DNA of 64,000 nt, from assembly GCA_029782025.1 (NCBI GenBank), contig JAKOVR010000052.1:1-64000 (forward strand). The letters are read 5' to 3'. The position numbers and the translations under genes are program-made. The stretch comes from Actinomycetes bacterium (GTDB lineage Bacteria; Actinomycetota; Acidimicrobiia; Acidimicrobiales; Acidimicrobilacustridaceae). Within the stretch, counting starts at the first letter, position 1. Each line of letters begins with the position of its first letter. This document shows positions 1,988 to 24,900 of the stretch, one piece after another. Under the pieces are notes generated by a model. That model was given only the letters and a program-made list of their open reading frames with translations, did no database searches and had not been told where the DNA came from.

Positions 1988-2500
1988 TCAGGCCCGGGCC
2001 AGTTCCTGCTCGTAGCGGCGAGCCGTCTCGCCATCGAAGGCGACGAGCACGACGTCGTCGAGGTCGGCACCGGCCGGCGACGCCGCCAGCTCCCGCAGCG
2101 TGTCGACGGCGATGCGGGCGGCCCGGTCGGCCGGGAAGCCGAAGATGCCGGTGGAGATGGCGGGGATGCCAACGGAGCGGGCGCCGATGTGCCCCGCCTC
2201 AGCGACGACGGCCCGGTAGCACGACGCCAGCGCCGCCTCCTCGCCGCGGTCGCCGCCGCGCCACACCGGCCCGACGGTGTGGATGACCCACCGGGCCGGC
2301 AGGGCGAACCCCGGGGTGGTCACGGCCTCGCCGGTGGGGCAGTGGCCGAGCGCGGCGCAGGCGGGGACCAGCTCGGGGCCGGCGGCGGCGAAGATGGCCC
2401 CGCACACACCCCCGCCCGGCCGCAGCCCCTCGTTGGCGGCGTTGACGATGGCGTCGACGGCCAGCGTGGTGATGTCGCCCTGCCAGGTACGGATCTCCAT
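1988..2500 (-). CDS. Macro domain protein (O-acetyl-ADP-ribose deacetylase-like)
   Basis: Stand-alone macro domain of 170 residues. It carries the ADP-ribose-binding signatures [17 protein letters not shown] near the N-terminus and [13 protein letters not shown] in the second half, the pattern of YmdB/MacroD-type enzymes that hydrolyse O-acetyl-ADP-ribose or remove ADP-ribose from proteins. I chose the ATG of MEIRTWQGD, because its A is shared with the TGA of the upstream GNAT remnant (TGATG), implying translational coupling; the 24 extra residues of the longer reading lie inside that gene. It is the last gene of a three-gene minus-strand unit with the heparinase-like lyase. Specific substrate unknown. 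Confidence 0.88.
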
Positions 2501-2718
2501 CACAGGGCGAGCTCCATCCTGATGCCGGGGCCGAAGCGGGTGGAGACCTCGCCCGTCTCGACGAAACCGCACCGCCGGTAGAAGGCGAGCGCGTCGGGGT
2601 GAGCGAGGAGGTGGGGACGATCGCTGTCCCAGATCAGCGAGGCCCGGCGCTGGAGCTCCTCGAGGTCGGGGCGTTCCTCCGGCCGGCCGTCGCGGATGAT
2701 GGGGGAGCGGATTCCCAT
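2500..2718 (-). CDS. Internally deleted GNAT acetyltransferase remnant
   Basis: A 72-residue reading frame that looks like the two ends of a GNAT acetyltransferase joined together. Residues 1-43 resemble the first strand-helix unit ([20 protein letters not shown]), and residues 44-72 are a typical GNAT C-terminus ([16 protein letters not shown]). The middle, including the acetyl-CoA pyrophosphate loop (Q/RxxGxG/A), is missing, so enzymatic activity is unlikely. The join falls at HPDA, a motif that in full-length relatives can occur near both ends, which suggests deletion between short repeats (inference). Start and stop still overlap the neighbours as TGATG, so the frame is kept in the operon and may serve only as a translational bridge. 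Annotate as degenerate rather than functional. Confidence 0.7.
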
Positions 2719-4799
2719 CAGCCCGTGAACCCCGGCGTGGCGACCGGGACGGTGGGCACGGTGGAGGGGGTGGCGGTGGGGTCGGCGGCGGTGATGCCCT
2801 TGCACGGGTTGGCGGAGAGGGGCGAGGACGCCGCAGTGCGCTCGACCGACGCCGTCGCCCCGTTGCTGTGCCAGAGGGCGGGCGGGTTCGGTGGCGTGGG
2901 TGGCTCCCCGGTGCCCCCGTCGAAGGCGACCGAGATGGTGGTGGCCCCGGCCGCGGTGAGGTGGATGGCCAGCTTGCGGATGCCGGTGTTGGGATCGTTG
3001 CCGGCGGGGTGGGGCGAGCTGGGGAGGGGGACGGCGGCCTCGATCGAGAAGGTGGCGTCGGACGGGGCGAGGAGGCTGGCCCGCAGGGTGTGCCCGTTCA
3101 GCGTGAAGGTCGCCGTCCGCCGGTCGGGGCTGAGCTGGAGCTGGGCCCGGGTGTGGAGGAACCACCACACGTCGTGGGTGGCCGGCGCATCGGTGAAGTC
3201 GAGCTGGTCCACCAGCAGCACGGTCGGCCCGCCGGGCGCGGTGCGGTTGCTGAGGGCCACGCCCCGTTGCACCGGGGTGCCGCGGTAGGCGTTGGTGAGG
3301 TCGATGACCGAGAACGACTCGTCGGGGCCGGAGGCCCATCGGGTGATCGTGGCCACGGCGCGCGGGTCCTGGTCTTCGCAGGCGTCGGGGTCGATGACGA
3401 GCGTGTTGTGGCCCTCGGCCCGGGATCGGTAGTAGTCCCACCGGGGGCCGCCCGGCCATGACTGGAAGTACCCGGCCACGCCGTAGTCCTCGCGGCCGAG
3501 GTCCATGGCGAAGCGTTGGCCGTCGCGGTCGAGCACGAAGGACCCGAGGTCGAGCTGGTTGTGGTTGAACCCGGCGTCGCCGCCCTTGGCCCCGACCCAC
3601 GTGGCCGTGGCGTCGTCCCATGCCGTGCGGCTGGTGGCGACGTCGATGCCGGCGAAGAGGCGGTCGAGCGGGAGCGGCTCGGACGGTCCGGTCGGCGGCG
3701 AGTACCAGACCACGTCGAGAGCGTGGGGCTCGGCGTGGGCCACCTGGTAGGCGCGGTAGGCGTCGTGGCCGTAGCGGTCGGCCAGCCAGAACATGGCCGG
3801 GACGCTCGGCGCGTTGCGGGGCTGGCCGTCGTCGGCCCACTCCCACCGCTCGCCGCTGGGGGCCGTCATGTGGATAGGGACGTCGCCGGTCCGGTCGAGG
3901 CCGGCCATGGCCGACAGGCCGAAGTCGTGCCCGAGCGCGCTCTGGAGGCTGGCCAGGGCGGCGACGGTGTACTCGGTGGCGTACTCCCAGTAGCCCACAC
4001 CCTCGGGCCACCCACCGTCGGGGCCGTAGTGGCGATAGGCCGACGGCAGCCGGACCAGCGCCTCGTGGGCCACGAAGGCGGCGAGGGACGGGTCGATGTC
4101 GGCCACGGCCAGGGCACCGATCGCCTCCCCTCCGTTGACCACGTTGTTCCAGTTGTGGTCGACGACCGTCCAGTAGCTGACGGCCAGCGGCATGTTCCCC
4201 GTGTAGCTGTCGCGGGCGGGGCCGAGCCCCATGGTGATGATCGCCTGCTCCACCTGGCTGCGCTGGGCCGGCGTGAGGCCGTCGTAGAGCCAGTCGTAGC
4301 CGATGGCCACGGCGTGGGTCATCTCGGCCGTGTCGAGGAAGTGCAGCGGGTTCCAGTCCGGGAAGCGGGTGACGGCGTCGAGCTCGGCCCATGCCCGGTC
4401 GCGGATAGCGGGGTCGCCGTCGACCAGCCACACCAGACCGAGGTCGTAGAGCCGGCGGACGGCGGCGCGGCTGGTCTCCAGCAGTCGGATCTCGTCGGGC
4501 TTGGTGTAGGTGAGCACCGGGGTGCCGAGCAGGGCGGTGGCCCGGGCCTTCACCTGCCCGTACCACGCGCCCGTGGTGGGCTCGGCGGCGATCCGGGCCT
4601 TGAGCGGGCCGATCGTGTCGGCGGTGAGGATCAGCCGGGGGTGCCCGGGGCGCAGGCCGGCCAGCACCGTGGCTTCCGGCGGCACGGCCACGTCGGCCCC
4701 CGACGGCGCGGCGACGAGGACGGCCGCGACGAGGGCGACCAGCACGGCGACGGGAACCAGGCCCGACACCCGGGACGAGGGACGCGGTCGGTTGGCCAT
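2718..4799 (-). CDS. Secreted heparinase II/III-like polysaccharide lyase
   Basis: A 693-residue exported protein. A signal peptide covers about residues 1-36 (Arg-rich start, then [23 protein letters not shown]). An alpha/alpha-toroid part follows, with [10 protein letters not shown] and [17 protein letters not shown], the block typical of heparinase II/III and alginate-lyase-like enzymes. The C-terminal beta part opens with [24 protein letters not shown], the equivalent of the HxHxDxxSF region, and [15 protein letters not shown]. The expected substrate is an acidic polysaccharide, but the exact sugar cannot be read from the sequence. The start is leaderless: TACGGT lies at -12 to -7 of the ATG. 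It is the first gene of a unit with the GNAT remnant and macro domain and is divergent from NfeD. Confidence 0.85.
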
Positions 4800-4811: not shown

Positions 4812-4915
4812 CCCGGCGTCAAGAAGCCGCGAAGCCCGGCGCTGGCTGTGGCGATGGGCGTGCCGTGGGCAGCAACGGAGCGTACGCTCACGGCAGCGAA
4901 AGGGGAACGGGAACC

Positions 4916-5389
4916 ATGGTGTTGTTCTGGTTCGTGATCGGCGTGGGACTGCTGCTCGTCGAGCTCACGCACTTCGCGTTCTTCGCCCTCTTCGCCGCCA
5001 TCGGCTGCTTCGCTGCCGCCGTGGTGGCGTGGGTGGCCCCCGACGCCGTCATCGTCCAAGGCGTCGTGGCCGTCGGCGTCTCGGCCCTCGGCGTCGCCCT
5101 GGTGCGTCCGCTCATGACCAAGGCGTTCCACCACGGCACCGGCCACGGAGAGAAGCTCGGCAAGGGCGTCTTCGGTTCGCTCGTCGGCGAGGTGGTCATC
5201 ACGCTCGACGAGGTCGGCGGGGTGGGGCACGTCGGGCACGTCCGGTTGGCGGGGGAGCGGTGGCTGGCCACCAGCGCCCACGGCGAGATCATCGGCGAGC
5301 ACACCAAGGTGCGGGTTGTCGAAGTCGACGGCACGACGCTGGTCGTCGAAGAGGTCGACTCGGATCAGCCCCGCGATCCCGAGCAGTAG
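4916..5389 (+). CDS. Short NfeD-family membrane protein
   Basis: A 157-residue NfeD protein of the short type, without the N-terminal ClpP-like protease domain. Two to three hydrophobic segments fill residues 1-70 (LFWFVIGVGLLLVEL, FFALFAAIGCFAAAVVAWV, VQGVVAVGVSALGVALV). An OB-fold-like beta domain follows (GEVVITLDEVGGVGHVGHVRLAGERW to TTLVVEEV). NfeD proteins pair with stomatin/SPFH proteins in membrane microdomains, and an SPFH gene follows 27 bases downstream. I preferred the ATG at 4916 over a GTG 51 bases upstream because AGGGGAACGGGAA gives it a ribosome site and the hydrophobic stretch starts immediately after it. Confidence 0.85.
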   Translation: MVLFWFVIGVGLLLVELTHFAFFALFAAIGCFAAAVVAWVAPDAVIVQGVVAVGVSALGVALVRPLMTKAFHHGTGHGEKLGKGVFGSLVGEVVITLDEVGGVGHVGHVRLAGERWLATSAHGEIIGEHTKVRVVEVDGTTLVVEEVDSDQPRDPEQ

Positions 5390-5416
5390 CGACATCAATC
5401 CAAAGGAGTGTGGGGA

Positions 5417-6367
5417 ATGAGCACGACGCAGGTGGTGGCGATCTCGGTCGTCATCCTGATCTTCATCGTCGGTCTCACGGCGTTGTGGAACGCCGTCAAC
5501 ATCGTCCAGCAGGGCGAGGTCGGTGTGGTCAAGCGGCTGGGTGAGTACAAGCGCACCCACGCCCCGGGCCTCGTCGTCATCATGCCCTTCTTCGAGAAGC
5601 TGATCCGGGTCGACATGCGGGAGGTGCCCCGCCCCGGTGACCGTCAGGACGTGATCACCAAGGACAACGTGTCGGTGACCGTCAACGCCACCATCTTCAC
5701 CCAGGTCGTCGACGCCAAGCAGGCGCTGTTCAGCGTGGCCAGCTTCGACGTCGCCATCGACGCCCTGGCCCGCACGGCGCTCCGCTCGGTCATCGGCACC
5801 ATGACCCTCGACCAGGCCCTCAGCGAGCGGGAGCGCATCAACTTCGACGTGCAGCAGCAGATGGAGGCCGTCACCGACAAGTGGGGCATCCGCATCAGCC
5901 GCATCGAGATCGTCGAGATCGCCCCGCCGCCCCAGATCCTCCAGGCCCTGGCCCTCCAGAAGCAGGCCGACCAGCAGAAGCGGGCCCGCATCCTCGAGTC
6001 CGAGGGCCTGCAGCAGTCGGCCATCAACGTGGCCGACGGCAACGCCCAGGCCGCGGTGCGGGCAGCCGACGGCGAGAAGCACGCCGCCATCCTCCGGGCC
6101 GAGGGCGCCCGGCAGGCCGCCATCCTCGAGGCCGAAGGTCGGTCCCAGGCCATCACCACCGTCTACTCGGCCATCCGGGCCGCCAACCCCGACACCACGC
6201 TCGTCGCCATCCTCCAGCTCGACACCCTGGCCAAGTTCGCCGAGAGCAACAACGCCAAGATCGTGGTGCCCTACGAGAGCGCCGGGTTGATGGGGGCAGC
6301 GCAGGCGCTCAAGGGTGTGCTGAGCGATGGCCCCGTGGGGGTCGTCCCGCCCCCGCCGCCGGCCTGA
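5417..6367 (+). CDS. SPFH/Band 7 (paraslipin-type) membrane protein
   Basis: A 316-residue stomatin/prohibitin-homology protein. One N-terminal membrane anchor (about residues 7-27) is followed by the SPFH domain with VQQGEVGVVKRLGEYKRTHAPGLVVIMPF, DMREVPRPGDRQDVITKDNVSVTVNA and the ERINFDVQQQMEAVTDKWGIRI block. A long Ala/Glu/Gln-rich coiled coil (QALALQKQADQQKRARILESEG and on) leads to a proline-rich tail. Such proteins form large oligomeric cages at membranes and recruit proteases or organise lipid domains. The ATG is preceded by AAAGGAGTGTGGGGA, a strong ribosome site, which excludes the GTG nine bases upstream. It forms an operon with nfeD. Confidence 0.92.
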   Translation: MSTTQVVAISVVILIFIVGLTALWNAVNIVQQGEVGVVKRLGEYKRTHAPGLVVIMPFFEKLIRVDMREVPRPGDRQDVITKDNVSVTVNATIFTQVVDAKQALFSVASFDVAIDALARTALRSVIGTMTLDQALSERERINFDVQQQMEAVTDKWGIRISRIEIVEIAPPPQILQALALQKQADQQKRARILESEGLQQSAINVADGNAQAAVRAADGEKHAAILRAEGARQAAILEAEGRSQAITTVYSAIRAANPDTTLVAILQLDTLAKFAESNNAKIVVPYESAGLMGAAQALKGVLSDGPVGVVPPPPPA

Positions 6368-6384: not shown

Positions 6385-7956
6385 GTGCCCACCGCTGCGC
6401 CCCCGACCCGCTTCGTCGACGTCGGGGGCGTGTCGTTGCGCATCCTCGACGTCGGCCCGACCGGCGACCCCGAGGACGGCCGGGCCCGCACCATCGTCGT
6501 CCTGCCGGGTCACACCGCCCGGATCGAGGGCTTCCTGCCGCTGGTGGCCGCGCTGTCCACCCACCACCGGGTGGTCGTCGCCGACTTCCCCGGGAGCGGG
6601 GAGTCCGACAAGCCCGTCCGGCCCTACACGCTGCGGTACTACGAGGACACGGCCATGGCGCTGCTCGACGCCCTCGGTATCGAAAGCGCCGTGCTGGCCG
6701 GCGGGAGCCTCGGCGGCAACCTCGTGCTGCGGCTCGGCCACCGCTTCCCCGCGCGGTTCCCGCTCCTCGTCGCCTGGGGCCCGGCCGGCGCGTGGTCCCC
6801 GTCGCCGCTGCTGGCCGCGGCCGTGCGGCGCCTGCCCCGCCGGGCCCTGTTCTGGCCCATCGTGTGGGGCCAGTCCCGGTTCTGGTACGGGCGCGACTTC
6901 CCCGGTCGGGCCGAGGCGTTGCGCGAGACGTTCGCCTACTACCGGCGGGTGATGGGGCCGGGCTTCCTGGCCATGTACTTCGGCATGGCGGCCGACCAGC
7001 TGGCCCACAGCCACTTCGCCTACGCCCACCGGATCGCCCAGCCCACGCTGCTCGTCGTCGGCGAGCACGACGACGGGGCCGGAATGCGTCGGGGCGTCGC
7101 CCGCCTCCGCACGCTGCTTCCCCACAACGAGCTCGAGGTCTTTCCCGGCACCCGTCATTCGGTCGAGACGGAACAGCCCGAGGCACTGGCCCGATCGATC
7201 CTCGACTTCGTGGCCCGGGAGGGCGAGCCCCGCCGGGCCCCGCCGCTGGTCGCGGTGCTGGCGGCGATGCACCAGGAACTGGCCCCCCTGGTGGAGGAGC
7301 TGCGCCTCCACCAGGTGCGCCTCCCGGGCACCGAGGCCGAGGCCTACCGGGGATCGCTCGGCACGGTCGACGTGGTCGCCGCCGTCACCTGCATGGGGCC
7401 GGAGGCGGCCCGCCAGGTCACCCGCGCCGTCCTGGCTCACCACCCCGTCGATCACGTGATCGTGACCGGCATCGCCGGTGCCGTCGACCCGCTGCTGCGG
7501 ATCGGGACCCTCCTCGTGCCCGAGCGGGTGGTGGTCGACGGCACGGGGGTGGAGGTGCGCCCGGTGCCCATCGACGGGAGCACCCCCGGCGGCACGATCG
7601 TGACGGTGCCGGCGCTGGCCCACCAGGCCGACATCGTGGCCCGCCTGCGGGCGGCCGGCGTGGCCGCCGTCGACATGGAGACGGGCGCCATCGGCGAGGT
7701 GTGCGAGGCGGCCGGCGTCCCGTGGTCGGCGTTCCGGGCCATCAGCGACCGGGTCGACGACGCCGACGTCGACGACGAGGTCTTCGACCTGGCCGGCCCC
7801 GACGGCCGACCCCGCCCCGGCGCGGCCGTCGCCTACCTCGCCCGCCACCCCGATCGCGTCCCGTACCTGGCCCGCCTGGCCAAGGGGTCGGCCCTGGCCA
7901 TCGGGGTCGCCACCCGGGCCACGCTTCGGGCCCTGCACACCCATCCGTTCGCCTAG
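6385..7956 (+). CDS. Alpha/beta hydrolase fused to MTA/SAH-nucleosidase-like phosphorylase domain
   Basis: A 523-residue two-domain protein. About residues 1-285 form an alpha/beta hydrolase: strand-turn VVLPGHTARIEGF, nucleophile elbow GGSLGGN, acid region VVGEHDDG and catalytic His in GTRHSVETEQP. From about residue 290 a nucleoside phosphorylase/nucleosidase domain follows (VAVLAAMHQELAPLVEEL, VIVTGIAGAVDP, AVDMETGAIGEVCEAAGVPWSAFRAISDRVDD), the last block matching MTA/SAH nucleosidases. I see no stop or frameshift between the halves. The likely start is GTG 6385; TTG 6376 is the alternative, and there is no clear ribosome site. The substrate is unknown. This pairing of domains is unusual. 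The SDR gene follows 9 bases downstream with its own leaderless promoter. Confidence 0.82.
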   Translation: MPTAAPPTRFVDVGGVSLRILDVGPTGDPEDGRARTIVVLPGHTARIEGFLPLVAALSTHHRVVVADFPGSGESDKPVRPYTLRYYEDTAMALLDALGIESAVLAGGSLGGNLVLRLGHRFPARFPLLVAWGPAGAWSPSPLLAAAVRRLPRRALFWPIVWGQSRFWYGRDFPGRAEALRETFAYYRRVMGPGFLAMYFGMAADQLAHSHFAYAHRIAQPTLLVVGEHDDGAGMRRGVARLRTLLPHNELEVFPGTRHSVETEQPEALARSILDFVAREGEPRRAPPLVAVLAAMHQELAPLVEELRLHQVRLPGTEAEAYRGSLGTVDVVAAVTCMGPEAARQVTRAVLAHHPVDHVIVTGIAGAVDPLLRIGTLLVPERVVVDGTGVEVRPVPIDGSTPGGTIVTVPALAHQADIVARLRAAGVAAVDMETGAIGEVCEAAGVPWSAFRAISDRVDDADVDDEVFDLAGPDGRPRPGAAVAYLARHPDRVPYLARLAKGSALAIGVATRATLRALHTHPFA

Positions 7957-7965: not shown

Positions 7966-8775
7966 ATGGCACTGGAGCTCGAGGGGGCGCGGGCCCTCGT
8001 CACGGGGGCGTCGTCAGGGATCGGGGCGGCGATCGCCGTCGGCCTGGCCGAGCGGGGGGTCACGGTCGGCATGTGCGCCCGCCGCGAGGACCGCCTGGCC
8101 GAGGTGCTCGAACGCTGCCGGGCCAGTGCCCCCGAGTCGCGGATGTGGGCGGTCGACCTGGCCGACCTCGACGCCCTGACCGACTTCGCCCACCAGGCCG
8201 ACGACGAGCTCGGCGGGATCACCCTGCTCGTCAACAACGCCGGCATCCCCAAGCGGCGCATGGCCGTCGACCTGCGCCTCGACGAGGTCGACCACGTGAT
8301 GGCGGTCAACTACCTCTCGCCCGTGCGGCTGACCCTGGCGCTCCTGCCCCGGATGCTGGCCCGGCCGGCCGGCGCCATCGTCACCATCGGCTCGGTGGCG
8401 GCGCGGATGTCCCCGGCCGGGGAGACGGCGTACTCGGCATCCAAGGCAGCGATCACCGCCTTCGCCGAGGGGCTGGCCATCGAGTGCTGGGGCGGGCCCG
8501 TCTCGGTGCACGTGCTGCACCCCGGCCTGGTCGAGACCGAGCTGTTCGCCATCCCCGACAACGATCCGAGCTACTCCGACGACATCGAGTTCCTCCCTCC
8601 GACCGCCGTGGTCGACGCCCTCGTCGAGCAGCTCGCCACCGGCACCTTCGAGACCTACGTCCCGTCGTGGTTCGCCGACATCGCGTCGGGCAAGGCCGCC
8701 AACCTCGACGGCTACCTCGCCGGGGCGGCCGAGTACTTCCGCGCCAAGTCCGCCGCCCCCGAGGAGGGAGCATGA
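7966..8775 (+). CDS. SDR family NAD(P)-dependent oxidoreductase
   Basis: Classical short-chain dehydrogenase/reductase of 269 residues. The dinucleotide-binding TGASSGIG is at residues 13-20, LVNNAG marks the end of strand 4, and the catalytic Tyr156 and Lys160 are in YSASK with an upstream Ser (TIGSVAA). A C-terminal tail (ADIASGKAANLDGYLAGAAEYFRAK) extends beyond the fold. It oxidises or reduces a hydroxyl/keto group on an unidentified substrate. Its stop overlaps the DUF35 start (ATGA), and a thiolase follows, so a role in acyl-CoA or steroid-type beta-oxidation is a reasonable inference. The start is leaderless. Confidence 0.92.
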   Translation: MALELEGARALVTGASSGIGAAIAVGLAERGVTVGMCARREDRLAEVLERCRASAPESRMWAVDLADLDALTDFAHQADDELGGITLLVNNAGIPKRRMAVDLRLDEVDHVMAVNYLSPVRLTLALLPRMLARPAGAIVTIGSVAARMSPAGETAYSASKAAITAFAEGLAIECWGGPVSVHVLHPGLVETELFAIPDNDPSYSDDIEFLPPTAVVDALVEQLATGTFETYVPSWFADIASGKAANLDGYLAGAAEYFRAKSAAPEEGA

Positions 8776-9167
8776 CCGCCACCATCCCGCTCGTCGACTA
8801 CCTCGTGCTCGGCGACCAGCCCCACCTCGAGGCCCACGAGTGCGAGGCCTGCGGGGCCCGGTTCTTCGACCGTCGCAACGCCTGCGCCCACTGCAGCGGC
8901 ACGACCTTCCGCCCCGCCGCCATACCCACCGAGGGGGAGGTGCGGGCCTTCACCATCGTGGCCTTCGCCGCCCCCGGCATCGACGTGCCCTACGTGGCCG
9001 CCGTGGTCGACTGCGCCGGCACGAGCGTGCGGGCCAACCTGATCAACGTCGCACCCGATCCCGAGCACGTGCACCTCGGCATGAAGGTCCGCCTCGCCAC
9101 CTACCCGGTCGGCGCCGACAGCGACGGCACCGAGGCCATCGGCTTCGGGTTCGAGCCCATCTCGTAA
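8772..9167 (+). CDS. Zn-ribbon and OB-fold (DUF35) protein, thiolase partner
   Basis: A 131-residue protein with a rubredoxin-like zinc ribbon (Cys24, Cys27, Cys38, Cys41) followed by an OB fold (EGEVRAFTIVAFAAPGIDVPYVAAVVDCAG to the C-terminus). DUF35 proteins are obligate partners of SCP2-type thiolases or of acyl-CoA hydratases and help form or bind the acyl-CoA site. The gene overlaps the SDR by four bases (ATGA), and the thiolase ATG lies 9 bases after its stop, so the three should be co-translated and a DUF35-thiolase complex is expected. Confidence 0.9.
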   Translation: MTATIPLVDYLVLGDQPHLEAHECEACGARFFDRRNACAHCSGTTFRPAAIPTEGEVRAFTIVAFAAPGIDVPYVAAVVDCAGTSVRANLINVAPDPEHVHLGMKVRLATYPVGADSDGTEAIGFGFEPIS

Positions 9168-9176
9168 GGGGGAACC

Positions 9177-10382
9177 ATGGCCAGCGACGATCTCTGGATC
9201 CTCGGGATCCACATGACCAAGTTCGGCAAGCACACCGATCTCGACGTCATCGACCTCGCGTCCGAAGCGGCGATGGGCGCACTCGCCGACGGCGGCGTCA
9301 CGATGGCCGACATGGGGGTGCTCGCCGCGGGGTGCCTGATGCAGGCCAACGCCCCGATCGGGCAGATGCTCCAGAAGCAGATCGGCCAGACCGGCATCCC
9401 CGTCTACAACGTGTCCAACGCCTGCGCCACCGGTGCCACCGCGCTGCGCGTGGCCGCCATGGCGGTCAAGGCGGGGGAGGCCGACTTCGGCCTGGCCGTC
9501 GGGGTGGAGAAGTTGGCCGGTGCCGGCCTCCTGGCCGGGGGGAGCCGCAAGGACGACGCCCCGACCTGGACGCCGAAGGGGCGCTACGGCGCCGTGGCGC
9601 CGGTCGACGGCCGCATCGGCACCGAGATCATGCCCGGGGTGTTCGCCCAGATCGGCATGGAGTACGGCCACCGCTACGGCGGGACGAGCTTCGAGCTCTT
9701 CGCCCGCATCAGCGAGAAGAACCACGCCCACTCCACCCTGAACCCCTTGGCCGCCTACCAGAAGCGCTTCACGCTCGAGGAGATCATGGGCGACCTGATG
9801 ATCGCGTACCCCAACACCCGCCCGATGTGCTCGGCCAACACCGACGGCGCCGCCGCGGTGGTGGTCACGAGCGGCGCCAAGCTGCGCACGCTGTCGCTCG
9901 AGCAGCAGCGGCGGGCGGTGAAGGTGTCGGCCTCGATCCTCACCAGCGATCCCTGGACCGAGTCGTGCCAGGTGCTCCCCGACGTCAACACCCTCACCCG
10001 CAACGCGGCGACGGCGGCCTACGAGGCGTCCGGGGTGAGCCCCGCCGACCTCGACCTGGTCGAGCTGCACGACTGCTTCGCCACGGCCGAGCTCGTCCAC
10101 TACGACAACCTCATGCTGTGCCCGGACGGCGGCGCCGTCGACTTCTTCGAGTCGGGCGCGCCGTTCCGCGACGGCCGGCTCCCGGTCAACGTGTCCGGCG
10201 GCCTGCAGTCCAAAGGTCACCCGATCGCCGCTACCGGCATCGCCAACATCTGGGAGGTGGCCACCCACCTGCGGGGTGAGGCCGGCGACCGCCAGATCGA
10301 GGGGGCCAAGGTCGGCCTCGCCCACGTGATCGGCCTCGGGTCCGCCTGCGGCGTCCACATCCTGGAGAAGGCCGCGGTGTGA
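9177..10382 (+). CDS. Thiolase family protein (SCP2/lipid-transfer type)
   Basis: A 401-residue thiolase. The nucleophilic Cys83 sits in SNACATGA. His298 and Cys300 are in HDCF, the motif of SCP2-type thiolases, and His348 is in KGHPIAATG. All catalytic residues are present, so either thiolytic cleavage or retro-aldol cleavage of an acyl-CoA is possible, as in Ltp-type enzymes that work with a DUF35 protein. The ribosome site AAGGGGGAACC precedes the ATG. It is the last gene of the SDR-DUF35-thiolase operon and runs towards the zinc-ribbon gene on the other strand. Confidence 0.93.
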   Translation: MASDDLWILGIHMTKFGKHTDLDVIDLASEAAMGALADGGVTMADMGVLAAGCLMQANAPIGQMLQKQIGQTGIPVYNVSNACATGATALRVAAMAVKAGEADFGLAVGVEKLAGAGLLAGGSRKDDAPTWTPKGRYGAVAPVDGRIGTEIMPGVFAQIGMEYGHRYGGTSFELFARISEKNHAHSTLNPLAAYQKRFTLEEIMGDLMIAYPNTRPMCSANTDGAAAVVVTSGAKLRTLSLEQQRRAVKVSASILTSDPWTESCQVLPDVNTLTRNAATAAYEASGVSPADLDLVELHDCFATAELVHYDNLMLCPDGGAVDFFESGAPFRDGRLPVNVSGGLQSKGHPIAATGIANIWEVATHLRGEAGDRQIEGAKVGLAHVIGLGSACGVHILEKAAV

Positions 10383-15900: not shown

Positions 15901-18900
15901 ATGGGTTCAACCCCCCGCGTCCGACGTACCGGTACCCCGGCCAAACTGGCCCGTTCCGCACGTCACGACTCGTCAGTCCCCGGGCGTACGCGTGCGCTCC
16001 GGCGTCGGATCACAAGCGTCGGGGTCGCGGCCAGCCACGTGCTCGCGCTCATCGGGATCACCACGCTCACGTCATCGACACCGGCAGCGGCGGGGCCGGC
16101 GCCGGTGATGTTCGGCTACGTGCCATTGCCCGCCGACCAGTTCGCCACCACCATGGCCACGATCAGCGCGAGCCAGGCCACGGTGTCGGGTACCACGATC
16201 GACTTCACCGTTGGCATCACCAACGCCGGTGCCGGCGCGATCATGTACTACGACGACTGGGAAGACGGCTATGAGGCCGACATCGCCAACCCGGTGCAAG
16301 CAACGACGCTCATCTTCGGTGACGGCAACGGGGCCAACGGCAACGCCGCGACCTTCTGCTCGACGTGCGCCGGCGACCTGCTGCCGGCGGGTGCGGCGTT
16401 GGTGATGCGCAACAACGTCACGACGCCACGCGGAGGGTCCCCGGCCACCGGCATCTTCGACGGGCGGGACAAGGTGGCGTCGACCCGAGGGTTCGCCCTC
16501 ACCGCCGGCGGCTTCGCCACCAATGTCGGGTCGCTTCTCGCCAGCGTCGTGTCCTCGTATGACACGAGCAAATACGGGTACGACTTCGTGGCCCCGGTCG
16601 GTGAGGACACCGCCGTGCCGGCGAGCACGTCGAACGCCAACGCCTACGCCGGGTTGTTCGTCCAGGCATCGCAGGACAACACCGCCGTCACGATCGACAC
16701 GAACGCCGACGGTGCCGCCGACGTGACGCAGACGATCAACGCAGGACAGGTGGTCCACGTCAACGGAACCGTGCTGGAGGGCGCGACCGTCCACGCGACC
16801 AAGCCGGTCCAGGTGCACGAGGCCACGGGTGACACCACCGCCTCCTACGAGTCGCGCTGGTACACGCTCTTTCCGAACAACCTCCTGTCGAACCAGTACA
16901 TGAGCCCGGTCGGCTCGGCCACCGCGAACTACCGCACCGTCAACTACCTGTACAACCCCAACAACGCGGCCATCACCGTCACGCCCACCTGTGGCCGATC
17001 GGTGAACGACGGCGCCACCACCAGCGGCAGCCCGACGGTCACGTCGGCCACCGCCAACTTCGTCAACGCCGACGTCGGCTCGCTCATCGGTGGAGCAGGC
17101 ATCCCGGCCGGCGCGCGGATCACCGCTCGCACCAACGCCACGACGGTCACCATCAGCGCCAACGCCACCGCCACCGCGACCGGGGTCGCCCTGTCGGTGG
17201 GCTGTCCGGCCCCGATCAACATCCCGGCCAACTCGGGCGTGTCGTTCATGTCGCCCAACGGCCTCGCGGTCTCGTTCCAGTCGAACGGGCCCAACTTCGT
17301 TGCCGTCGCCGGCGTGGGCGCGCAATCGGGCGCCCTTCCCGGTGCCGGCACCGACGCCTCGTCGAACTGGGACTGGGGGTACACCCTCACGCCGGTCACC
17401 CTCCTCACCACCCAGGTCGTGATCGGCTTCGCCCCTGGGAACTCGAACCTCAACCCGAGCCTCCCGGCGGGGAACCGCGACGACGATCCCGTTTGGATCA
17501 CGACCCTGACCCCCACGACGCTTCACGTCGACTTCGATGGGGACCCGGCCACCGGCGCGATCGCTGGCGCCGACTGCTTCGGCGCCAACCACGACCAGGA
17601 CATCGTCGTGGGCGCAGGTCTCACGTCGACCCGGATCTTCGACAACACCGACGGCACCATGACCGGCGCGCGCATCTACACCTGTGACGGCACGAAGATC
17701 TCCGGTGCGTGGGGTGAGGACTCGGCCAATGCCCCGTTCGGCACCCCCGGCTTCGACGCCGGCTACACCGTCATCCCCACCACCACCATGGTGGTCAACA
17801 AGAGCGGTGCGGTGGTGACCGACACCAACGGCGACGGTCGGCTCAGCCCGGGCGACATCATCACCTATGACATCTCGATTTCGGATGCCGGGAGCTTGGC
17901 GTTCACCAACGTCAACGCCCAGGACACGATTCCGGCCGGCACCCAGTACGTCGCGGACTCGACCAACTTCGACGACGGGTCGATCACGCACATCCCCGAC
18001 GACGTGGTTCCTCCCGCGGCGACGACCTTCCCGCTCGACGAGACCGGCGCCGGTGTCCCTGGCGGCGGTGGCGTCGCGGCGGGCGCCACGGTCCATTTCA
18101 CCTTCTCGGCGCTCGTACTCGATCCCTACCAGGCGTCCGGCACGATCCTGCACAACACGGCATGCGGGTCCGCGACCGAAGCGAGCAACTGCGGGTCGGT
18201 CGACACCCCATTGACCAATTCGGACCTGTCGCTCACGAAGAGCGTGACGAGCGCGGCAACGTTCGTCGGCACGAACGCGACCTTCCGTGTTTCGGTGACG
18301 AACGCCGGCCCTGACACGGCGACCGGCGTGGAGGTCACGGACCTCCTCCCCGCAGGGCTCACCTACGTCTCCGATACCCCGTCGCAGGGCTCGTACGACA
18401 GCGGCACCGGGGTGTGGGCAGTCGGTTCCCTGGCTGGGAGCGCGACCGCGACCCTTGACATCACGGTGCAGGTGAACGCCTCGAGCGTCGACAACTTCGC
18501 CCAGGTCACGAGGGCGCAGGCCGCCGATCCCGACTCGCAGCCGGCGGAGAACCCGCTCGGCCCGGGCAACCCGCCCGACCAGGATGATGAGGCTGTCGCC
18601 ACCGTCACGGCGGCGCCGGTCGCGGACCTCGCCATCAGCAAGACCGATGGTGGGGCCACCACGACACCCGGTGGCACGGTGACGTACACGCTCACCGTGA
18701 GCAACTCCGGCGGCGCCGACGCCACGGGAGCGGTCATCTCCGAGACCGTGCCCGCGAATTCGACGTTCAACGCTGGCGCGTCGTCCGCCGGCTGGACATG
18801 CTCTCCGGACAACAACGCCGGCTCGACCTGCACGAACACCGTCGGTACCGTGACGTCGGGTGGCACCGTGTCCAGCACGTTCGCCGTCACCGTCGCGAAC

Positions 18901-21900
18901 CCGGTGCCCACTGGCACCACGCAGGTGACCAACACCGCGACCGTCTCGGATGACGGCAGCCACGGGGTGGATCCCACCCCGGGCAACAACACGAGCTCGG
19001 ACAACACACCGATCACCACCGCGATGGATATCAGCGTGGTGAAGTCCGACGGCGGCGCGACTGCCACCCCCGGCTCCACCGTGACCTACTCCATCACCGC
19101 GACCAACGGCGGGAACGTCGGCGTCACCGGGGTCGTTCTCACCGAGACCGTTCCCGCCAACTCGACGTTCAATGCTGGCGCCTCGTCCGCGGGTTGGGCG
19201 TGCTTGCCGAACAACAATGCTGGCTCCACCTGCACGCTCACCGTCGGTGGATTGGCCGGCGGCGGCAGCAGCGCCGGCTTCAATTTCGCCGTCACGGTGG
19301 CGAACCCGGTCCCGGCCGGAATGACCCAGCTGAGCAACACCGTCACCATCGCCGACGACGGCGCCAACGGCGCCGACGGGACCCCGGGCAACAACACGTC
19401 GACCGACACCACGCCCGTCACCGCCAGCCCGGACTTGACCATCACCAAGTCCGACGGTGGGGCCTCCGCCACCCCCGGCGGCACGACCAGCTACACGCTC
19501 AGCTACCAGAACGTGGGCGACCAGGACGCCACTGGTGTGGTGATCACGGAAACCGTGCCGACCGACACGACGTTCAACGCGGCCGCGTCGTCCGCGGGCT
19601 GGGTGTGCGTGCCGGACACCAATGCCGGATCCACGTGCACGATCACCATCGGCTCGGTGGCCGCGGGCGCGCCGATCGCGACCCGAACCTTCGCGGTGGC
19701 CGTCGCCGATCCGTTGGCGGCAGGCGTGTCGCAGATCTCCAACACGGCAACCATCGCCGATGACGGCGCCAACGGCGCCGATCCTTCGCCGGCCAACAAC
19801 GTGGCAACCGACACCACGCCCGTGGACGCCGCACCCGACCTGTCGATCGTGAAGTCCGACGGCGGAGCATCCACGACCCCGGGCGGCACGGTCACCTACT
19901 CCTTGCAGGTGACCAACAGTGGCAACCAGGGCGCGACCGGTGTCGTGGTCACGGAAACCGTGCCGTCGAACACGACCTTCAACCCGGGACTTTCGAGCGC
20001 CGGCTGGACCTGCGCGCCCGACGGAAACGCCGGCTCCATCTGCACCAACACCATCGGCGCGCTGTCGGGCGCCGGCGCGACGACGACCCTCGACTTCGGT
20101 CTGACCGTGGCGAATCTCATCCCCGCCGGGGTCAACCAGGTGGCGAACACGGCCAGCGTTGCCGACGACGGCGGTAATGGCCCTGACCCGACACCGGGTG
20201 ACAACACCAGCTCCGATACGACCCCGATCACCACCGCGCTCGACCTGACCATCACAAAGTCCGACGGCGGGGCCACGACGACGCCGGGCGGTACCGTGAT
20301 CTACACGCTCGACTACGCCAACGACGGCAACGTCGGTGCGACGGGTGTGGTGCTCACCGAGACCGTTCCCGCCAACTCGACGTTCGACCCGGGTTCCTCG
20401 ACGGCAGGGTGGTCGTGCCTGCCGGACGACAATGCTGGCTCGACCTGCACGCTGACCGTTGGTGCCCTGGCCGGTGGCGGAGCGAGCGGCACGGCGACGT
20501 TCGCCGTCGCCGTGGTGAACCCGGTGCCGGCCGGGACCACACAGATCTCGAACACCGTGCTGGTAGGCGACGATGGTGCCAACGGTGCCGATGCCAACCC
20601 GGCCAACAACACGGCCAGCGATACCACGCCGGTGACGGCTGATCCGGACGTGGTGGTGTCGAAGACCGATGGTGGTGTGACGACGACGCCGGGTGGGACG
20701 GTCGCCTACACGATCACGTACACGAACAACGGTGACGAGGACGCGACGGGGGTGTCGTTGGTGGAGACGGTGCCGGCGAACACGACGTTCGATGCCGCGG
20801 GGTCGACGGCGGGTTGGGGTTGTGTGCCGAACGGCAACGCCGGTAGCACCTGCACGCTCACGATTGCTGGCCCGATCGCCGGTGGCGGCGGCAACGGATC
20901 CGCGACGTTCGCGGTGACGGTCGACAACCCGCTGCCCGGAGGCGTGACCCAGATCGCCAACGCGGTGGTGGCCGACTTCCCGTGCTCGACGGGCACCTGT
21001 ACGAGTCCGCCCGGGACCGACACCACGCCGGTGACGTCGGATCCGAACATCACGGTGTCGAAGACCGATGGTGGGATCACGACGACGCCGGGTGCGACGG
21101 TGCCTTACGCGATCACGTACACGAACAACGGCAACGCGGCTGCGGCGTCGGTCACGTTGACCGAGACGGTGCCGGCGAACACGACGTTCGATGCCGCGGG
21201 GTCGACGGCGGGTTGGGGTTGTGCGCCGAACGGCAACGCCGGTAGCACCTGCACGCTCACGATTGCTGGCCCGATCGCCGGTGGCGGCGGCAACGGATCC
21301 GCGACGTTCGCGGTGACGGTCGACAACCCGCTGCCCGCGGGGGTCACGCAGTTGACCAACGCGGTGGTGGCCGACTTCCCGTGCTCGACGGGCACCTGCA
21401 CGAGCCCGCCCGGGACCGACACCACCCCGGTCACCTCGGCGCCCGACCTGTCGATCGTGAAGAGCGACGGCGGCGCGTCGACCACCCCCGGCGGCACCGT
21501 GGTGTACGGCCTCACGGTCACCAACAACGGCACCATCGCCGCTACGGGTGTGACGGTCAACGAGACGGTGCCGGCGAACTCCACCTTCAACGCGGGCGCC
21601 TCGACCCTTGGCTGGACCTGCGCGCCGAACAACAACGCGGGCTCCACGTGCACCTTCGACGCCGGCACGCTCTCCGGTGGTGGCGCCTCGACAGTGGTGA
21701 ACTTCGCCGTGACGGTCGATACCCCGATTCCTGGAGGCGTGACCCAGATCGCCAACACCGCCGTCGTCACCGACGACGGCGACAACGGCACCGATCCGAC
21801 GCCGGACGACAACACCAGCTCCGACAGCACGCCGATCGTGTCGGCGGTCGATCTGACGGTCAGCAAGTCCGATGGCGGTGCGGCCACGACGCCCGGCGGC

Positions 21901-24900
21901 ACCGTCGTCTACACGATCGGTTTCAGCAACGACGGCAACGTCGGAGCTACGGGTGTGGTACTCACCGAGACGGTGCCGGCGAACAGCACGTTCGATTCGG
22001 GATCGTCGTCACCGGGGTGGACGTGCTCGCCCGACAACAACGCCGGTTCCACCTGCACGCTGAACGTCGGCAGCTTCGGCGCCGGCAGCCTGTCGGTGGC
22101 GACCTTCGGGGTGACCACGGTGAGCCCGCTCCCGATCGGGGTCACCCAGCTCTCCAATACCGTGACGATCAGCGATGACGGCACGAGTGGCCCGGATGCC
22201 AACCCGACCAACAACACCTCGACCGATACCACGCCGATCACGGCGGCTCCGAACATCGTGGTCAGCAAGGACGACGGCGGCATCACGGCGCAACCTGGCG
22301 GCTCGGTCGATTACGCGATCCAGTACACGAACAGCGGCGACCAGGACGTGGCCGGCGTCGTGATCCACGAAACCGTCCCCGACCACACCACGTTCAATCC
22401 CGGTGGTTCGACCGCGGGCTGGACCTGTGTGCCGGACAACAGCGCCACTGCGGCCTGCACGCTGGCCATCGCCGGCACGATCGCCGGCAACGGTGGCTCT
22501 GGTGTCGTGCACTTCGTGGTCACGGTCGACAACCCGCTTCCTGCCGGCGTCACCCAGCTCACCAACGCCGTGACCGGCACGTGGCCCTGCGTCACCAGCA
22601 CCTGTCCGAGCCCGCCCGGAACGGACACCACGCCATTGAGCTTCGCCCCTGACCTCAGCGTCACGAAGGACGACAGCGGTGTCAGCGTGGCGGCCGGCGG
22701 GTCGGTGGCGTACACGATCACCTACGCCAACAACGGCAACATCGCATCCACCAACGTCACGCTCACCGAGACGGTGCCCGCCAACACCGCCTTCAACAGT
22801 GGAGCCTCGACCGCGGGCTGGGTGTGCGCACCCGACAACTCTGCCGGCGCCACGTGCACCCTGAACGTGGGCACAGTGCCCGGCGGGGGTGCCGGTGGCA
22901 CCGCCACCTTCGCAGTCACCGTGGATTCGCCGCTGGCCGGCGCGGTCACCCAGATCGACAACACGGTCACCATCGACGACGACCACGACAACGGCGACGA
23001 CCCGAACCCCGACGACAACACCGGCACCGATGCCACGCCGGTCGTCCAGAGCCTGATCGGCGACACGGTCTTCCTCGACCTGGACGGCAACGGCGTGCAG
23101 GACCCGGGCGACACCGGCCTGGACGGCGTCACCGTCACGCTCCTGCAGGACGCCGACAACAATGGATCGTACGAGACCACGGTCGGCACCACGGTCACGG
23201 CCGGTGGCGGGCTCTACTCGTTCACGAGCCTCCCGCCCGGTGTGTACCGAGCGGTCGTGACCGTGCCGGCCGGGTTCAGCAACTCCACGCCGACGCAGGT
23301 CGATCACACGTCGGCGGCCGACGAGGTGTTCGCCGATGCCGACTTCGGCATCCTCGGTGCCACCATCGGCGACCATGTGTTCCGCGACTCGGTCGTCAAC
23401 GGCGTGTTCGACAACGGCAGCGACAGCAACCTGGTCGGCGCCACGGTCGAGCTCCACAGCAGCGGCGGTGCCCTGCTCCAGACCACTGTCACCGACGGCA
23501 ACGGCGACTACCACTTCCGTGGGCTCCCGGCCGGGGACTACAACGTCACGTTCGTCCCGCCGGCGGGCATGGTCTTCACCCGACCCAACGCCACGTCCGA
23601 CAACCTCGACTCGGACGCCAACGTCCTCGACGGCACCACCGGCGTGTTCAGCGTGGCGGCAGGTGCCACCAACAACGACATGGACGCAGGCCTGTACTTC
23701 CCGACCGATTTCTCCGGCAAGGTCTACCAAGACCTGAACAACAACGGCGCGGTCGATCCCGGTGAGGCAGGCATCCCTGGCGCGACGATCACGATCACCG
23801 GTACCGACGACCTCGGCAACCCGGTCAATGTGTCGACCACGACCAACGGCAGCGGCGACTGGGCCCTCACCGTCCGGACCGGCACCTATACGATCACCGA
23901 GACGCAACCGGCGGGCTTCCTCGACGGCAAGGACACCGTCGGCGCCCAGGGCGGAACCCCCTCGAACGACCAGTTCAGCAACATCGTCCTCGGCGAGGGC
24001 AACCCTGGATCCGGGTACCTCTTCGGTGAGGTGCCGCCATCGTCCTTCGCCGGCACCGTCTTCGACGACGCCGATGGCGACGGCACCCAGGACCCGGGCG
24101 ATCCCGGCATTCCTGGCGCCACCGTCACCCTCACCGGCACCGATTGGAACGGCAACCCGGTCAACACCTCGACCGGCACCGACGGCTCCGGCGTGTTCAC
24201 CTTCGCGAACCTGCTCCCGGGCACCTACACGATCACCGAGACCCAGCCTGGTGGCTTCGTCGACGGCCGTGACACCGTCGGATCCGTTCCGGGCACGCTC
24301 GGCAACGACGTCGTGTCCTCGATCAGCCTCCCGGTGGGCACCTCGGCAACGGGCTACACCTTCGCCGAGCTCCGTACCGGCTCCATCGGCGATCGGGTCT
24401 GGAGCGACACGAGCGGCGACGGCATCCAGGATCCCGGCGAGGGCAACCTGCCCAACGTCACCGTGAACCTCAGCGGCACCGACGTGCTCGGCAATGCAGT
24501 GAACCAGTCGACCACGACCAACGCGTCAGGCATCTACAGCTTCACCAACCTGGTGGCCGGCTCCTACACGGTCACGGTCGACACGGCCACGACGCCTCCG
24601 GGATCGACCTCCACGACCACGAACCCGCGGCCGGTCACCCTCGACGAGGGCGAGTTGAACACCGACACCGACTTCGGCTTCGCGCCGGCGCCGCCTCCCA
24701 CGGGCGCCATCGGTGACACCGTGTGGAGCGACACGAACGGGAACGGCTCCCAGGACCCGGGTGAGCCGGGCCTCGGAGGCGTACTCGTCACCCTCCTCCA
24801 GGACGCCGATTCGAACGGCAGCTACGAGACCACGGTGACCTCGGCGATCTCGAGCGGCGCTGGCACCTATGGCTTCCCGGGGCTGCCAGCCGGTCTGTAC

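Follow-up and report, generated by a model that had tools for sequence, protein, structure and literature searches.

A single gene in the window, by which we mean the whole 64,000-nucleotide stretch of DNA analysed here, encodes an alpha/beta hydrolase fused in frame to a nucleosidase, and the observation made in the initial annotation is thereby confirmed. The best explanation, to which we assign a probability of about 0.55, is a real, lineage-restricted fusion of a hydrolase and a nucleosidase of the MTA/SAH nucleosidase (MTAN) type, the two probably acting side by side on separate substrates. The gene, its parts and its neighbours are as follows.

4865..5389, + strand: NfeD-like protein (PF01957)
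5408..6367, + strand: SPFH/Band 7 protein (PF01145)
6385..7956, + strand: fused gene, 523 aa, GTG start (open frame and Pfam)
6409..7218, + strand: alpha/beta hydrolase half, aa 9-278 (Pfam, alignment, profile match and model)
7219..7245, + strand: linker, aa 279-287, EGEPRRAPP (from the ends and starts of standalone relatives)
7246..7953, + strand: MTAN-fold nucleosidase half, aa 288-523 (Pfam, alignment, model and PDB matches)
7966..8775, + strand: short-chain dehydrogenase (SDR), 9 bases after the fusion stop (PF00106)
8772..9167, + strand: OB-fold/zinc-ribbon (ChsH2-like) protein before the thiolase (PF01796, PF12172)
9177..10382, + strand: thiolase/lipid-transfer protein (PF22691 and others)

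Elsewhere in the window, a heparinase II/III-like protein (PF07940) is encoded at 2718-4799 (-), a macro-domain protein (PF01661) at 1988-2572 (-), where it adjoins a guanylate-cyclase-domain protein at 1165-1968, and a 3557-aa protein rich in DUF11 and SdrD_B repeats at 15901-26574.

The fused gene is a single unbroken frame of 523 codons on the + strand, opening with a GTG at 6385, 17 bases past the end of the SPFH gene, and closed by the stop codon at 7954-7956. PF00561 was matched at aa 36-259 (E 3.4e-18, 66.6 bits against a Pfam cut-off of 25.8) and PF01048 with its best stretch at aa 289-385 (E 2.5e-22, above the Pfam cut-off) and a second piece at 7597-7785 of the window, so the two domains annotated for one 523-residue chain do lie in one frame, both over cut-off. 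The Ser nucleophile and His ascribed to the first half were located at S108 (in GGSLGG) and H258 (in GTRHS), and an Asp was also found at the usual triad place (D229, in GEHDD). The DMET and ISDR motifs ascribed to the second half were likewise found, with E432 and D455, together with an MHQE motif carrying E298.

Comparison with standalone relatives located the join. Standalone hydrolases stop about 0-14 residues beyond the position equivalent to aa 278 and standalone nucleosidases start at about the position of aa 285-295, indicating that the fusion consists of two complete domains placed end to end. A sequencing or assembly error that joined two neighbouring genes was considered in this light and appears unlikely. 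The fusion is seen in one draft genome only, and two codons of the linker, both GAG (aa 279 and 281), are each one base from a stop, as such an error would allow; against it, frame and codon use are continuous across the join, the join falls exactly between two complete domains, and no leftover spacer beyond nine codons is present. The codon score of the fusion frame was above those of the other five frames in all 11 of the 150-base bins, including the join bin, and third-position GC was 95% in the hydrolase half and 96% in the nucleosidase half. An alignment of the full-length protein together with the relatives of either half (A3) misplaced 28-41 residues per nucleosidase in the hydrolase region and was rejected, and the two halves were therefore modelled separately. 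The resulting structure predictions show two folds in one chain, and the alignments show, within one frame, both predicted sets of active-site residues, with standalone relatives of each half.

In the first half, the alpha/beta hydrolase fold (Abhydrolase_1) and the Ser-Asp-His triad were both found. Ser108, Asp229 and His258 were invariant in 8/8 aligned sequences of its subfamily, which has many further invariant positions of its own in this alignment; the seven other members are 54-63% identical to the window's hydrolase in it. The model of this half (pLDDT 88) matched esterases, an enol-lactonase and C-C hydrolases with Z scores of 27-30 (up to 29.8) in largely tied rows that point to no particular substrate, and the enol-lactonase was among the top rows. 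PcaD was among the best NCBIfam models (75.6 bits against a cut-off of 255.85), and the half scored far under every NCBIfam cut-off among the models listed. The first half is accordingly named here only as a candidate Ser-His-Asp ester or lactone hydrolase.

In the second half, the MTAN fold was found together with the catalytic Glu and Asp and the Met-Glu ribose site. The model (pLDDT 95) matched MTAN or futalosine hydrolase in 50/50 of the PDB rows listed (Z 22.8-26.9, rmsd 1.8-2.4), and M11, E14, M147, E148 and D171 (numbering of the half) were invariant in an alignment of 34 subfamily sequences. Profile alignment to 4qez and 5dk6 gave the correspondence to MTAN, in which E298, E432 and D455 occupy the active-site positions of MTA/SAH nucleosidase, the catalytic Glu/Asp and the ribose-binding Met-Glu being assigned by the numbering and roles of the E. 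coli enzyme. The NCBIfam cut-offs for MTAN equivalogs (PRK05584, 82.8 of 169 bits; TIGR01704, 43.8 of 73.8 bits) and for the futalosine hydrolase MqnB (63.8 of 124.7 bits) were missed. Positions 100-146 of the PNP_UDP_1 profile were unmatched, with about 20 residues in their place, and a similar profile gap was observed in the nucleosidase relatives of genomes G029 and G036. The region that helps to form the 5' pocket in MTAN thus differs here, which suggests that the pocket receiving the 5' group is altered. The second half would cleave a 5'-substituted adenosine at its N-glycosidic bond to give adenine and a 5-substituted ribose, and its most likely substrate is 5'-methylthioadenosine (MTA) or 5'-deoxyadenosine.

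The top NCBIfam model for this half was HpnG, at 86.7 bits with MTAN second at 82.8, and the HpnG model was matched by 34/34 subfamily members at E <= 0.001. HpnH over cut-off was found in 6/27 genomes with the nucleosidase and in 0/25 without it (p 0.023, a value that ignores kinship). These results would fit an HpnG-like enzyme of hopanoid metabolism with adenosylhopane as its substrate, a reading that we regard as highly improbable: the window's half lies far under the HpnG cut-off of 187.1 bits, no HpnH over cut-off was found in the draft host genome (best match 48.1 bits against 225.05), and six regions around HpnH held no clear nucleosidase match. The nucleosidase-bearing genomes with HpnH over cut-off were G096, G104, G113, G125, G148 and G368.

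The metabolic setting of the host genome bears on the choice of substrate. MtnA acts on a sugar phosphate that comes from MtnP, or from MtnN plus MtnK. The fused gene encodes the sole PNP_UDP_1 (PF01048) protein found in the genome, and AhcY and MtnA are both present above cut-off, sharing one locus (L163, G000:C204:83000-102500) with a P450, an SDR and a polysaccharide deacetylase; MtnA is the fourth gene after AhcY. The MqnA family (PF02621) was not found in the draft genome (0/1). SAH has an alternative route, since AhcY is present; taken together, the sole PNP_UDP_1 protein, MtnA and AhcY, with no MqnA found, make MTA or 5'-deoxyadenosine a more likely substrate than SAH or futalosine. For the first cut upstream of MtnA, the draft genome offers no candidate but the fused half; the assembly has 219 contigs and is 95.7% complete, so that an MtnP may be missing from it. 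The M. tuberculosis MtnN prefers 5'-deoxyadenosine, according to the part of PMC6302742 consulted, and this preference and the MtnA/AhcY/MqnA pattern together support the assignment of MTA or 5'-deoxyadenosine. A PNP_UDP_1 match was absent from 22/37 genomes of the family, indicating that the activity is dispensable there.

The fusion was found in the host genome only, and each half was found apart from the other in relatives. The fused protein was matched in 5/37 family genomes at 1e-15, with a full-length match in its own genome only; the same fusion, which the initial annotation had proposed to seek in other genomes, was thus absent from 36/36 other genomes of a family in which the genus is represented by its own genome only. 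Among 66 distinct fetched genes matching the nucleosidase profile at 1e-15, a set that may include more distant PNP_UDP_1 genes, the hydrolase profile was in frame in one, the window's own. Nucleosidase places from the class search entered this architecture check where a locus was fetched, and four places from the order search (G274:C27, G235:C199, G372:C108 and G402:C420) were left out of it. Genes were called with a home-made caller; in loci L056, L065 and L066, where it produced no model for the nucleosidase, this gene was taken from tblastn or from the open frame. In the order, the fused protein was matched at E <= 1e-25 in 41/397 genomes, including its own and three hydrolase-only genomes; in the class, the nucleosidase profile was matched at 1e-20 in 42/395 genomes, its own included. 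The two samples are draws from larger groups and have genomes in common, and in these searches, as in the search of the order for the hydrolase, scoring covered the top few candidates of each genome.

The hydrolase subfamily is rare in the order, occurring in 5/397 genomes (four of genus g114 and the host), and three further members were found in MAGs labelled delta proteobacterium/Myxococcota or Proteobacteria (52-57% identity). The hydrolase stands alone at 7/7 other loci, with the nucleosidase in none of those open frames, and no locus examined except the window holds the two together. A plasmid search with the whole protein matched 97 records, but in none of them did a single place span 80% of the query, and the 15 matches listed all fell on the hydrolase half. 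In the consulted portions of the papers matched by domain names or fusion topic, no hydrolase-nucleosidase pairing in bacteria was described; the papers matched by both domain names were general ones or dealt with fungal immune receptors.

These distributions bear on the proposal of the initial annotation that the fusion implies sequential chemistry on one metabolite, for example with the hydrolase taking off an acyl group before the nucleosidase breaks the glycosidic bond. Enzyme fusions often link steps of one pathway; both active sites are intact here, and a dehydrogenase and a thiolase pair are packed closely with the gene. However, genomes G278, G296 and G329 of g114 have the hydrolase and no nucleosidase of the subfamily (threshold 1e-5, all candidates scored), G216 of the same genus has both on different contigs, and the halves share no locus examined other than the window. 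With the halves apart in relatives, sequential chemistry on one metabolite is left without comparative support, and we consider it unlikely. The two-enzyme chain with both active sites is supported, and its sequential use is not, the halves lying apart in relatives with no conserved partner gene standing out beside the nucleosidase. Because the halves are apart in the relatives examined, a local gene fusion is the probable origin and not a shared two-step pathway.

The flanks of the fused gene are consistent with such an origin. At L064 (G204), a standalone nucleosidase lies beside NfeD (50% identity) and SPFH (77%) genes in opposite orientation, and at L080 (G216) a nucleosidase lies near an OB-fold protein (65% identity) and a thiolase (77%). 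Upstream and downstream flanks are therefore both seen near standalone nucleosidases, each link resting on one locus, which fits a hydrolase gene placed before a nucleosidase. The tree puts the window's nucleosidase in a pair with the one from G029, a genome of the same family, with support (86/79) that is not strong. No conserved partner gene stood out beside the nucleosidase among the neighbours compared: enoyl-CoA hydratases made up 4/62 immediate neighbours and 3/143 distant genes (p 0.20), and SDRs 3/62 and 5/143 (p 0.70). This enrichment test is weak, because the neighbours were labelled with one-seed profiles and such profiles overlook members. At L085, the nucleosidase lies between an AurF-like oxygenase (PF11583) and a 353-aa protein for which Pfam gave no match over cut-off, and the same two gene clusters flank it at L087.

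A second fusion of the same nucleosidase subfamily was found in G360 (L067:5721-7280; G360:C47), where a 519-aa protein carries an SDR (aa 7-191) before it. The L067 fusion falls in a supported 13-row clade (98/96) that does not contain the window's row, and the two fusions therefore look independent. With a lactonase-like hydrolase as partner in the first and an SDR in the second, they hint at an oxidative route of sugar disposal, in which the nucleosidase would free a 5-substituted ribose, a neighbouring or fused SDR would convert it to a lactone, and an enol-lactonase-like hydrolase would open the lactone. Several observations agree with this route: an SDR (7966-8775) directly follows the fusion in the window, an SDR 46% identical to it directly precedes the nucleosidase in L082 and another, 49% identical, lies in L080, and PcaD and an enol-lactonase are among the best NCBIfam models and top structural rows of the hydrolase. 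A chlorodeoxyribose 1-dehydrogenase is mentioned in the section of PMC6302742 consulted. Set against these, the lack of SDR enrichment beside the nucleosidase, the SDRs' best listed scores, which are under cut-off, generic and 3-ketoacyl-reductase-like, the place of the window's SDR with a thiolase, and the identity of only about 35% between the fused SDR of L067 and the window's SDR make oxidative disposal quite improbable. In its fullest form, the fusion and the adjacent SDR would carry out a three-step oxidative disposal of a SAM by-product, 5'-deoxyadenosine or methylthioadenosine, through lactone opening; given the lack of SDR enrichment next to the nucleosidase, this is kept as the boldest reading only and judged very doubtful.

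We therefore return to a lineage-restricted fusion with side-by-side activities. A free-standing alpha/beta hydrolase gene would have come in frame, without a stop, before a nucleosidase gene; the short, MTAN-like subfamily to which the latter belongs is widespread in the order and class. The nucleosidase half would cut MTA or 5'-deoxyadenosine, with the MtnA isomerase serving the later sugar-phosphate step, and the two activities would work on separate substrates with a short linker between them. If both halves are active, the protein would be a single-chain enzyme of a pairing with no bacterial example in the consulted portions of the literature searched, and it would offer a handle on both a short MTAN-like subfamily and a rare hydrolase subfamily. 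The SDR fusion, for its part, points to a link between adenine release and sugar oxidation.

Among known systems, PNP_UDP and alpha/beta-hydrolase domains occur as alternative domains before the sensor in fungal NLR N-termini and immune effectors, as described in the part of PMC4986451 consulted; the window protein differs from these PNP-type effectors in lacking a sensor domain. An anti-phage PNP effector was sought with PADLOC, which returned only PDLC00759 (E 0.002, 14.7 bits), and the neighbours are metabolic or membrane genes. The hydrolase half shares its fold and triad with the 3-oxoadipate enol-lactonase PcaD, HsaD and esterases (PF00561), and differs from PcaD in score (75.6 against 255.85 bits) and in forming a separate subfamily with its own invariant positions. 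HpnG (TIGR03468, hopanoid-associated phosphorylase) gives the best NCBIfam score for the nucleosidase half and is similarly short, at 212 positions, whereas the score of this half is 86.7 against 187.1 bits and the host has no HpnH over cut-off. MTA/SAH nucleosidase (MtnN, PF01048) resembles the fused half in fold, catalytic Glu/Asp and ribose-binding Met-Glu positions; in contrast to MtnN, the fused half has a shortened region (profile 100-146), scores below the NCBIfam cut-offs and is joined at its N-terminus to another enzyme. Fusions of a nucleosidase or of an enol-lactonase with another enzyme have precedents, by their model names, in the MtnN-phosphatase fusion (PRK06698) and the PcaDC/PcaCD fusions, from which the window fusion differs in its partner domains and their order.
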